Shown one piece after another: positions 7,245 through 10,348 of a stretch of 64,000 nt of DNA. Both the position numbers and the translations under genes were made by a program. The stretch spans positions 3,968,001 through 4,032,000 of the forward strand of contig NZ_CP071409.1 of NCBI RefSeq assembly GCF_022647505.1, read 5' to 3'. The notes below the pieces were generated by a model. It saw only the letters and a list, made by a program, of their open reading frames with translations. It was not told the DNA's origin and did no database searches. Each line of letters starts with the position of its first letter. The first letter of the stretch is position 1. The DNA is from [Pantoea] beijingensis (GTDB lineage: Bacteria > Pseudomonadota > Gammaproteobacteria > Enterobacterales > Enterobacteriaceae).

Positions 7245-7676
7245 TTATTTGCCACGAACCAACGGTAAATTCTCACCACTCCATCCAGACACGCCGTCTT
7301 TCAATACGGATACCTGTGCAAAACCAGCAGCGTTAAGCTGAGCGGCGGATTCTGAAGCGGAAGCTCCCGTAGCACACACCACGATAATCGGTTGAGCTTT
7401 ATGCTTTTCCAATTCGCCAAAACTGCCTTTTTTAATGTCTGCTGCCAGCACGTTCAGCGCGCCGGATATATGACCTTTACGATAATCATCACGCGAGCGG
7501 ACATCAACGACGATGGCGTCCTCTTTATTAATCAAATGTGTCGCCTCGCCGCGGCTAATGGTTTTGACTTTAGAGAACAGACTCTTAGCGGTGGTTCCGA
7601 TCACCAAAACCAGCAAGATAACCCACGCTAAACTTAAGACCGGGTGATTACTTGCGAATTGCATCATTTCTTGCAT
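7245..7676 (-). CDS. yibN: Membrane-anchored rhodanese YibN
   Basis: A single N-terminal membrane helix (about 12-30) precedes a rhodanese domain. The active-site loop is C101-ATGAS, so the catalytic cysteine is present. The precise substrate is not established; E. coli YibN is an inner-membrane rhodanese that has been linked to membrane-protein biogenesis. It is the first gene of the grxC/secB operon. Length 143, as in E. coli. Confidence 0.95.
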
Positions 7677-8022
7677 GAGGGGTAACAGCTCCCGACAGGG
7701 TTAATAAGCTAAAACAAGGCTTCTGAGTATACCTGCGCCACTTCTCATGTACAGTCGCGCAGCGGTCAGAGTGACGTTTTATGCGGTAGATTTCAAAAAA
7801 AAGTCCATTCACCACAAAATCCCTTATCTGCGATATGCCGCTTTGATCTGAACCGGCTATTGATTGCACATCAGCAAAGTAAACTTGTACTCATTTTTTC
7901 TTTGTATAAGAAACGACGATTATTACCCTTTTTCCCTGTTCCTTCGGGATATTTGTCAGGATAAAAAAGCAAACATGGTTGAGTGCCTCAACGAATGATC
8001 AGACAGGCAGAGGAACCAACTG
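7677..8022. other. Gene-free stretch upstream of the gpmI scar
   Basis: About 345 bp without a credible gene. It must hold the promoter for yibN (minus) and probably that for envC (plus). An AT-rich segment lies at about 7880-7970. In E. coli the gpmI gene starts in this position. Weak gpmI-like coding similarity may extend from about 7990 into the clear remnant, but I cannot establish it by eye. Confidence 0.5.
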
Positions 8023-8109
8023 AACATGGCTGTAGCCGGAAACGGTAAATAAACAGAAATAGAAATCCAGCAAGAGATGACTGGTAAGCCGCTGTTCATC
8101 GTGGAATAA
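8023..8109 (+). pseudogene. gpmI: 3' remnant of gpmI (phosphoglycerate mutase)
   Basis: Read in one frame ending at TAA 8107-8109, the DNA encodes EIQQEMTGKPLFIVE. This is the conserved C-terminus of cofactor-independent phosphoglycerate mutase GpmI (E. coli ends EIPQEMTGKPLFIVE). Further upstream in the same frame, NMAVAGNGK resembles the NVKAVAGGK segment that normally lies about 14 residues before it; an in-frame TAA and a short deletion separate the two. The remaining roughly 480 codons are missing. It lies immediately upstream of envC, exactly where intact gpmI sits in E. coli (gpmI-envC-yibQ). This is a deletion scar, not a functional gene. Confidence 0.85.
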
Positions 8110-8137
8110 TCCACCATCTATGAGGGGAAAAGCGGCA

Positions 8138-9427
8138 ATGTCACATCAATGGACCCAGCGTAACGGAATCACCACGAGCCCGCCGTTACGTTCGAGATTG
8201 TCCACTCTATCCGTCGGCGTATTGTGTGCTGGCGTCCTGCTATTGCCTTTTTATAGTCAGGCGGCAGAGGACAATAAATCTCAGCTAAAAACCATTCAGC
8301 AGGACATTGCTGCGAAGGAAAAAAGCGTAAAACTGCAGCAAGATCAGCGTAATAAGCTCCTCGGCCAGTTACAAAGTCAGGAAAAAACCATTGCCCAGGC
8401 CAGCAGACAACTCCGCCAAACGCAAATTTCACTTACCTCATTAGATAAAGAAATCACCACGCTGACCACCTCCATCACGAAACTGCAAAAACAGCAGACC
8501 GAACAGGAGAAAATACTGTCAGAACAGCTTGATGCCGCGTTCCGTCAGGGCCAGCACAGCGGTTTACAGTTAGTATTAAGCGGTGAGGAGAGCCAACGCA
8601 GTGAGCGTATTTTGGCTTACTTTGGTTATCTCAACGATGCCCGCCAGAAAAATATCGATGACTTACAGCGAACCCGCCACGAGCTTTCATCGCAGAAGGC
8701 ATCGCTGGTTGATAAGCAATCCCAGCAAAAAAAGCTGTTGGCGCAGCAACAAATTCAGCAAAGTACGCTGGAGCAAGCACGCATAGCGCGTAAAAAAACC
8801 ATCACAACGTTAGAATCTTCGCTGGAAAAAGACCAGGCCCAGTTGGTTGAGATGCGTCAAAACCAGAGCCGCCTGCAGGATAAAATTGCTAAAGCGGAAC
8901 GGGAAGCGCGCGCGCGCGCGGAGCGAGAGGCCAAAGAAGCCGAACGTGTTCGCCAACGCCAGCAACAAGCGAAAAGCAAAGGCACTACATATAAACCGAC
9001 TGAAAGTGAGCGTTCACTGATGTCTCGTACTGGCGGTCTGGGTCGTGCAGGTCGCCAGGCCGTTTGGCCAGTGCGCGGCACCATAGAACATCGTTTCGGT
9101 GAGGCATTACAAGGTGAGCTGCGCTGGAAAGGATTGGTCATTGACGCGCCGGAAGGCACAGAAGTGAAAGCCATCGCGGATGGCCGGGTGCTAATGGCCG
9201 ACTGGCTACAAGGCTACGGTTTGGTTGTCGTAGTTGAACACGGTAAAGGCGATATGAGCCTATATGGCTACAACCAAAGTGCGCTAGTGAGCGTGGGAAC
9301 CCAGGTTAAGGCAGGAGAGCCAATCGCACTGGTCGGGACCAGTGGCGGCCGGGGCACGCCTTCACTCTATTTTGAAATCAGACGACAAGGACAGGCCGTC
9401 AATCCACTGCCGTGGTTAGGAAGATAA
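8138..9427 (+). CDS. envC: Divisome activator of amidases EnvC
   Basis: Periplasmic septal-ring factor that activates the cell-wall amidases AmiA and AmiB and is controlled by FtsEX. A signal peptide/anchor covers about residues 20-43 (ends SQAA). Long coiled coils fill about 45-275, with an Arg/Ala/Glu-rich stretch encoded by a (GC)n tract near 8915. The C-terminal degenerate LytM domain (about 315-429) lacks a full zinc site, as expected for an activator. The ATG at 8138 was chosen because AGGGG precedes it by about 10 nt; an upstream ATG at 8120 overlaps that ribosome-binding site. 429 residues against 419 in E. coli. gpmI, normally the upstream gene, is deleted. Confidence 0.95.
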   Translation: MSHQWTQRNGITTSPPLRSRLSTLSVGVLCAGVLLLPFYSQAAEDNKSQLKTIQQDIAAKEKSVKLQQDQRNKLLGQLQSQEKTIAQASRQLRQTQISLTSLDKEITTLTTSITKLQKQQTEQEKILSEQLDAAFRQGQHSGLQLVLSGEESQRSERILAYFGYLNDARQKNIDDLQRTRHELSSQKASLVDKQSQQKKLLAQQQIQQSTLEQARIARKKTITTLESSLEKDQAQLVEMRQNQSRLQDKIAKAEREARARAEREAKEAERVRQRQQQAKSKGTTYKPTESERSLMSRTGGLGRAGRQAVWPVRGTIEHRFGEALQGELRWKGLVIDAPEGTEVKAIADGRVLMADWLQGYGLVVVVEHGKGDMSLYGYNQSALVSVGTQVKAGEPIALVGTSGGRGTPSLYFEIRRQGQAVNPLPWLGR

Positions 9428-9430
9428 GTC

Positions 9431-10348
9431 TTGTTTCAGCTCAGAAAATTCAACATCCTGCTGTGCAGTTTATCGCTTGCTTGTTCAGCGCATGCTGGCA
9501 AGCTTGCTATCGTCATTGATGACTTTGGTTATCGCCCTAAGCAGGAAAATCAGGTACTGCAGATGCCACAGGCGGTTTCTGTCGCCGTGTTACCTAACGC
9601 CCCCCATGCCCGAGAAATGGCGACCAAGGCTCACCAACGCGGCCATGAAGTTTTGATCCACCTGCCTATGGCTCCTCTGAGCAAACAACCTCTGGAGAAA
9701 GACACGCTGCACCCGGATATGACCCGTTCAGAGATCGAGCGCATTATCCGTGAGGCAGTTAATGATGTGCCTTTTGCCGTTGGCCTGAATAATCATATGG
9801 GGAGTGCAATGACCTCCAGCCTGTTTGGCATGCAGAAAGTAATGCAGGTTCTGGATCACTATAACTTCTACTTTCTTGACAGTATGACGATCGGCAATAG
9901 CCAGTCAACACGCGCCGCGCAAGGCACCAGCGTAAAAGTCATCAAACGACGTGTATTCCTTGATGATAGCCAGAACGATGCCGAGATCCGTAAGCAGTTT
10001 ACCCGAGCGGTACGTTTAGCTCAGCGTGATGGCTCCGCGATTGCTATTGGACACCCACATCCTGCAACAGTAAAGGTGCTGCAGCAAATGCTTCCAACGC
10101 TGCCGGCAGACATAACGTTAGTTCGACCCAGTCAGCTACTGCATGAGCCACAGCATAACGGCGATAAGCCGCTGGTTACAGATAGCAAACCAACGAAACC
10201 AGAAAAGCCACGCAACCCATTCCGCGGCGGCGAAACCTGTGCCCTTAAACAGCAACCCCCAGCAATCCCAGCCACGCGCGCACTCAGCATCATTGCTGAA
10301 AGTATCGCTAACAGCCCCTTGGTCAAAACGCTAAAAAGTCTGTTCTGA
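9431..10348 (+). CDS. yibQ: Divergent polysaccharide deacetylase-like protein YibQ
   Basis: Periplasmic protein of the divergent polysaccharide-deacetylase family; its substrate is not known. It starts at TTG 9431, three bases after the envC stop, and the product begins with a signal peptide ending AHA (about 22). The deacetylase fold motifs are visible: VIDDFGY near 30, HEVLIHLPM near 75, NNHMGS near 120 and GHPHPAT near 200. The C-terminal tail from about 245 is low-complexity and Pro-rich. Conserved linkage with envC suggests a cell-wall role. Confidence 0.92.
   Translation: MFQLRKFNILLCSLSLACSAHAGKLAIVIDDFGYRPKQENQVLQMPQAVSVAVLPNAPHAREMATKAHQRGHEVLIHLPMAPLSKQPLEKDTLHPDMTRSEIERIIREAVNDVPFAVGLNNHMGSAMTSSLFGMQKVMQVLDHYNFYFLDSMTIGNSQSTRAAQGTSVKVIKRRVFLDDSQNDAEIRKQFTRAVRLAQRDGSAIAIGHPHPATVKVLQQMLPTLPADITLVRPSQLLHEPQHNGDKPLVTDSKPTKPEKPRNPFRGGETCALKQQPPAIPATRALSIIAESIANSPLVKTLKSLF

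Follow-up and report, generated by a model that had tools for sequence, protein, structure and literature searches.

The last codons of a lost gene, gpmI, persist immediately upstream of envC in [Pantoea] beijingensis and, on the comparison of related loci, they very probably correspond to the envC promoter, which was spared in separate losses of gpmI. The window, a stretch of 64,000 nucleotides, belongs to a genome made of one contig (4,107,390 bases). The original prediction described these bases as a deletion scar. Its homology to gpmI stands; the decay that a scar implies does not, the block being constrained in a promoter-like manner.

The gpmI-derived stretch, the 3' end of the lost gene with its stop codon, covered positions 8057–8109 of the plus strand, as delimited by ungapped identity to gpmI 3' ends and by the encoded peptide. 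Positions 8074–8109 read GAG ATG ACT GGT AAG CCG CTG TTC ATC GTG GAA TAA and encode EMTGKPLFIVE-stop, the C-terminal peptide of GpmI, as originally recognised. The 31 bases from 8081 to 8111 on the same strand (CTGGTAAGCNGCTGTTCATCGTGRAATAATC) showed no difference from the 3' terminus of E. coli gpmM and the two bases beyond it, and this conserved block is the proposed envC core promoter. It starts with a CTGGTAA box (8081–8087), in which TGGTAA (8082–8087, plus strand) is the proposed −35 hexamer. The proposed extended −10, TG-G-AATAAT (8102–8110, plus strand), contains the gpmI stop TAA, and its hexamer is separated from TGGTAA by 17 nt. The envC gene, coding for the murein hydrolase activator, followed on the plus strand (8120–9427; NF008644 equivalog, 686.2 bits), with a first in-frame ATG at 8120 and an alternative ATG at 8138 behind GAGGGG. 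The divergent upstream neighbour was the rhodanese-like yibN (7245–7676, minus strand), and yibQ (sddA; 9431–10348, plus strand, no NCBIfam match) lay 3' of envC. The arrangement yibN-(gpmI)-envC-yibQ agrees with that of E. coli, in line with the ancestral order gpmI-envC-yibQ that had been assumed. By EnvC, the nearest named relatives were Winslowiella iniecta (86%) and W. arboricola (85%), followed by Erwinia, Pantoea and Mixta species.

Compared with 60 gpmI 3' ends, the 24 nt located 5' of the block showed ungapped identities of 87% and then 76% per 12-nt step; the steps further upstream gave 25, 19, 24, 41 and 19%, for a shuffled expectation of 32%. Another gpmI fragment with a stop and a small deletion had been predicted in this upstream part. 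No gpmI homology was seen beyond about position 8057 in the ungapped comparison, which a remnant broken by indels could escape, and a tblastn search with E. coli GpmM (E ≤ 1e-3) found no piece in the window locus. Two terminator-like inverted repeats were present on the minus strand, at 7978–7992 and 8067–8084 (2 found for 0.4 expected).

The loss of gpmI and the presence of GpmA, both part of the prediction, were confirmed. PF06415 (iPGM_N) had no match across the entire host genome, and there was no intact gpmI elsewhere in it; GpmA was present as a 250 aa protein (NF010713 equivalog, 458.8 bits for a cut-off of 305). None of the 35 other genomes of the genus matched PF06415, and all 36, the host included, had a pgm_1 (GpmA) match above cut-off. 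A second match to the pgm_1 family above cut-off, besides gpmA, was observed in the genus genomes G002, G011, G022, G028 (with an internal stop) and G033. In the wider family gpmI was found in 103 of 246 genomes, and in other families of the order in 20 of 24. E. coli GpmM is 514 aa long, which puts the loss at the window locus at nearly 500 codons; the figure first given was about 480.

The locus was compared in two sets of genomes. The gpmI-less set contained 83 loci, 36 of them from the genus (the host included) and 47 from the gpmI-less genomes among the EnvC matches listed, in which weaker EnvC matches are missing. The gpmI-bearing set contained 66 loci, 65 of them hand-picked from the 103 (mostly one per genus) plus E. 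coli. Site counts were made over 82 gpmI-less loci, L115 having no block, and block and hairpin counts over 60 gpmI-bearing loci, with the block-less L150, L157, L159, L160, L161 and L169 left out.

A sharply unequal distribution of changes was observed in the 82 gpmI-less loci. The seven sites of the CTGGTAA box required 1, 2, 1, 0, 6, 4 and 0 Fitch changes. In the extended −10 there was no change at the T and the G, 12 at the n, and none at any of the six sites of AATAAT. The spacer between the boxes showed a mean of 7.3 changes per site. Outside the block the means rose to 16.4 in the nearest 20 nt on the 5' side, 21.4 in the next 20 and 34.7 from −70 to −41, and reached 16.1 in the 15 nt on the 3' side, as compared to 18.2 at the third codon positions of envC. 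TGnAATAAT was found in all 82 loci, and AATAAT matches TATAAT at five of six positions. A CTGGTAA-like box was kept 14 nt before the TG in 79 loci, the upstream box being CTGGTAA in 67, CTGGTCA in 7, CTGGCAA in 5 and another sequence in 3. Two short A-tracts, at 8057–8066 in the window (about −52 to −60 of the proposed promoter), were slow-evolving and UP-element-like in these loci, with 8 and 7 changes at block positions −23/−22 and 4 and 4 at −17/−16, their neighbours having mostly 11–29.

An extended −10 promoter of the sigma-70 type consists of TGn joined to the −10 hexamer, at a 17-nt spacing from a weak −35, and transcription starts about 7 nt downstream. In the block, TGn stands right before a hexamer close to TATAAT, and the n is free while the TG and the hexamer are constrained. 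TGGTAA, 17 nt from the −10, matches TTGACA at three of six positions and is largely conserved; a simple sigma-70 promoter scan did not report it or the proposed envC promoter site as a whole. We infer the binding of the block by RNA polymerase, the identity of the sigma factor and the position of the transcription start. The weak −35 also leaves some room, though rather little in our judgement, for the block being the site of a regulator or a promoter of another sigma factor, sigma-70 making only partial contact; this explanation overlaps with that of a sigma-70 promoter, and the confidences placed in the two do not add up to one. The base at −12 was A and never T in the 82 loci, which would be odd if promoter strength alone mattered, and much of the spacer GCTGTTCATC was conserved in many loci beyond what a bare spacer needs. 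Both points favour the regulator or other sigma factor too; against that explanation, the site-by-site pattern fits an extended −10.

The anchor for these counts was the place where the entire block matched best, and a second test was therefore anchored on the spacer alone. This anchor fell at the same place in 68 of the 82 loci, and TGnAATAAT was present in 68 out of 68. The 14 loci in which the anchor shifted all had at least four mismatches in the block. The promoter-like conservation pattern is not an anchoring artefact.

The strict two-box form, CTGGYMA-N14-TGNAATAAT, was located upstream of envC in 79 of the 83 gpmI-less loci (35 of 36 in the genus and 44 of 47 in the others), and no further site was present in these gpmI-less loci, which amount to 990 kb with both strands counted. 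It occurred once in the host genome; G002, of the same genus, has a second site elsewhere. The four gpmI-less loci without it were L115, L139, L141 and L148, and in the last three the −10 was kept and the strict form of the −35 was missing. L148 (G004, 3.4 Mb), in which TGGAATAAT was kept, was the sole member of the genus without the strict two-box form and the usual ATG. The full 31-mer had no mismatch in the window and 0–7 in 79 of the 83 gpmI-less loci, as compared to 10–17 for the best matches of 40 permuted 31-mers in the approximately 500 nt upstream of envC. The predicted gpmI tail is thus no chance resemblance. The outliers were L141 (9 mismatches), L142 (11), L140 (12) and L115 (13), the last three within the permuted range, and in L140 and L142 the site is identified by the two boxes and not by the 31-mer. 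Little beyond the two boxes survives in the most diverged loci, and the distance between them is unchanged. With up to three mismatches, the 31-mer was found in 128 of the 246 genomes of the family sample, which holds many reduced genomes with neither gpmI nor the block, and its reversed control in none.

In the gpmI-bearing relatives the bases of the block are the last codons of gpmI, and the two-box form was present in 60 of 66 loci. The last nine informative codons had a mean normalised codon entropy of 0.25, versus 0.69 over 433 columns (66 loci), and ranked first of 425 gpmI segments for low synonymous variation. In the six block-less loci the gpmI stop was 272–467 nt away from the projected EnvC residue 48, as against a median of 151 nt (115–328) in the other 60, and these six presumably possess another envC promoter. 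Among 80 named loci, the two-box form was missing in the gpmI-bearing Chimaeribacter (2) and Edaphovirga (1) and present in the other 77. G174 (L115), the only gpmI-less genome here in which the block is absent, shares its genus with G277, which bears gpmI and is likewise block-less. In this single case, where gpmI would no longer have carried the promoter, nothing of the promoter was kept. Outside the family, the two-box form was located at the gpmI 3' end in five genomes (G036, G044, G045, G047 and G059) and elsewhere in G038. The coding sequence may suffice to explain its presence at these gpmI ends, which suggests how the promoter arose.

A role of the block in RNA, through ribosome loading, processing or a small-RNA site in a gpmI-envC message or an envC leader, would agree with its position close to the envC start and with the hairpin that covers the ATG in gpmI-bearing species. 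It is improbable, as the boxes at a fixed distance, the drifting spacer and the invariant TGnAATAAT with its free n fit a promoter better, and a search of Rfam over 7600–8400 up to E=5 gave a single match, under the gathering score, on the other strand and away from the block (7923–7956). The scar of a recent deletion, neutral and not yet decayed, would account for a tail derived from gpmI in a genome from which gpmI is absent, and it is hardly credible given that gpmI is missing from every one of the 35 remaining genus genomes and that the two boxes are kept in nearly all gpmI-less loci between flanks averaging 16–35 changes per site. Decay of 8081–8111 at a neutral rate was rejected, the block being near-invariant; a neutral scar may describe 8057–8080, which is a drifting stretch. 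The fairly recent date proposed for the loss does not hold either, the tail being near-invariant in 35 of the 36 genus genomes between diverged flanks.

The changes were also distributed by codon. The most variable site of the block was the second base of the Pro codon (27 changes), followed, with 12 changes each, by the first bases of this codon and of the Glu/Lys codon. Third bases along GGT AAG CCG CTG TTC ATC GTG GAA changed 6, 7, 7, 7, 3, 1, 0 and 0 times, and in GTG GAA TAA the changes seen in the 82 loci were confined to two of the nine bases, neither of them a third base. Judged by these counts, selection acts on the nucleotides of the block and not on a peptide. Conservation of a translated short peptide MTGKPLFIVE, for instance a leader peptide coupled to envC translation, is accordingly rejected as very improbable: in the window its frame stays open up to a stop 10 nt ahead of ATG 8120, but its ATG is lost in several members of the genus, the site with most changes is the middle base of a codon and its last bases are mostly fixed as nucleotides.

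The number of losses was estimated on trees. The gpmI label needed 7 changes, at least 6 of them forced by starred branches, in a 66-row tree built from six neighbouring proteins, and in a larger FastTree tree 7 by Fitch parsimony, or 13 maximal gpmI-less clades if regain was forbidden; label changes cannot separate gain from loss. As gpmI is present in 20 of the 24 genomes from other families, loss is the natural direction. A single clade of all gpmI-less rows (without L115) was rejected with a p-AU of 0.0004, in a test where branches were long and the group was named after inspection of the data. A single loss within the Erwinia–Pantoea–Mixta group was not rejected (p-AU 0.247), because the gpmI-bearing G145 (L149) could not be firmly placed. 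L149 is the only gpmI-bearing row within that group of the tree. Its GpmI formed a long and deep branch, with a top identity of 80%, and was not nested in a donor clade, and this gpmI may be a late survival or a horizontal re-gain of old date. The gpmI homology left 5' of the block extended, as we read the comparison, for about 12 nt in L121 and in L134/L135, 24 nt in the window and at least 36 nt in other groups, as expected if separate deletions, or separate decay, took place. On this evidence the losses of gpmI are more than one event.

We propose the following scenario. In the ancestor the envC promoter would have been situated within the last codons of gpmI, with the −35-like TGGTAA, 17 nt, and the extended −10 TGnAATAAT overlapping the stop. 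Transcription by the sigma-70 RNA polymerase would begin a short distance downstream, at ATG 8120 or immediately ahead of it. The gpmI gene would be dispensable because GpmA catalyses the same reaction, and the deletion would have had to spare the promoter, since daughter-cell separation depends on cell-wall amidases that EnvC activates. After the loss, drift would have altered the remainder of the tail, as well as the spacer in diverged lineages, with no change at the promoter bases. The tail would persist because its bases are constrained, so that its preservation says nothing about the age of the loss. What looks like the tidy leftover of a gene can function in regulation, and is then no clock. 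The repeated losses of gpmI constitute natural deletion experiments, which locate the probable envC promoter with nearly single-base precision.

A second feature accompanied gpmI. In the 24 nt located 3' of the −10, a stem of at least four pairs was found in 59 of 60 gpmI-bearing loci (shuffled 21%) and in 18 of 82 gpmI-less loci (22%; shuffled 15%). In the gpmI-bearing loci the hairpin was often CCCC-ATGA-GGGG, the first in-frame ATG of envC being within or beside the loop. The median 30-nt folding energy was −9.9 kcal/mol in gpmI-bearing versus −2.45 kcal/mol in gpmI-less loci. Energies of −7.0 or below were found in 58 of 60 versus 4 of 82 loci; at an initial threshold of −3, 26 of 48 gpmI-less rows had counted as hairpin-bearing, and the thresholds of −4.9, −6.2 and −7.0 were applied once the medians were known. 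The fold z-score was −2.1 for the E. coli region and +0.45 for the window. The fold was strong (−13.6) in L149, which bears gpmI in a mostly gpmI-less group, and weak in L134 (−4.4) and L135 (−2.0), which are gpmI-less among gpmI-bearing enterics. Independent pairs relating hairpin to gpmI numbered 5 on starred branches (6 on all) with none opposite, and no sign test fell below 0.05. In the covariation analysis 80.4% of the cells were paired versus 78.2% in shuffles (20 of 500 reached the value), with an ambiguous register, and pairs changed on both sides were not above shuffles (436 of 500 reached the value). Covariation was rejected as a proof of the stem, on account of the weak signal and the register. 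The run of U that an intrinsic terminator needs after its hairpin was absent by eye.

An in-frame ATG or GTG was present 6–9 nt 3' of the −10 in 58 of 60 gpmI-bearing and 73 of 82 gpmI-less loci, and in 8 and 10 of them, respectively, no other in-frame ATG, GTG or TTG preceded the signal peptide. The annotated envC start of E. coli is 24 nt beyond the first in-frame candidate. This position of the start codon makes a leaderless or near-leaderless envC message possible in some species. The presence of the hairpin with gpmI, and its large absence without it, suggests that it acts in the read-through mRNA. It is conceivable, and put forward tentatively, that the two messages differ in use: the read-through mRNA from gpmI would be poorly translated for EnvC owing to the hairpin, and the message of the tail promoter, leaderless or nearly so, would lack the left arm of the hairpin. 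That the tail promoter starts at or beside the envC ATG is, taken jointly with this switch, an equally speculative proposal. The same limited confidence goes to the joint suggestion that, once gpmI is lost, the hairpin has no purpose and decays while the promoter stays. If such a switch exists, the presence of gpmI predicts the hairpin, and the expression of a cell-separation gene is decoupled from glycolysis. This offers the testable idea that genes for glycolysis and cell separation share a stretch of DNA without forced sharing of expression.

In phage T4, gene e is carried by an early read-through mRNA in which a hairpin blocks the start, and is later transcribed from a promoter inside the hairpin. 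The control of envC would be alike if its hairpin blocks the read-through mRNA, with the differences that envC is chromosomal and that its hairpin largely disappears with the upstream gene. Compared to sigma-70 extended −10 promoters in general, the site in the gpmI tail lies within a coding gene, around its stop codon, and its −12 A is fixed. For E. coli, PMC4808223 reports that the Keio deletion of gpmM (=gpmI) reaches the seventh-to-last codon, that the mutant is as HNP-1-sensitive as an envC mutant, and that envC with about 200 bp of upstream sequence rescues both. According to the paper, which cites Kroger 2012 and RegulonDB, an envC promoter within the deleted gpmM region had been proposed earlier. 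The deletion would leave the −10 in place and remove the CTGGTAA box wholly or for the greater part, in agreement with the boxes located in our comparison. The promoter described in that paper for the gpmM 3' end of E. coli and Salmonella is in the same place and before the same gene, and its removal gives the envC phenotype (PMC4808223); what differs is that the boxes are now placed by conservation, and outlive the host gene. This placement also applies to E. coli, where the gpmM deletion is reported to give an envC phenotype (PMC4808223). The 3' regions of amiA and amiB hold promoters for downstream genes in E. coli, again according to PMC4808223. Like the gpmI tail these are internal promoters carried by an upstream gene, with the difference that the upstream gene is still present. 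In the open-licence literature, nothing beyond PMC4808223 was found on the envC start or on a promoter kept after the loss of its gene. Internal promoters are known and an envC promoter in gpmM has already been proposed in E. coli; relative to the open-licence papers, the placement of the promoter by conservation, its survival of several gene losses and the hairpin linked to gpmI appear to be new.
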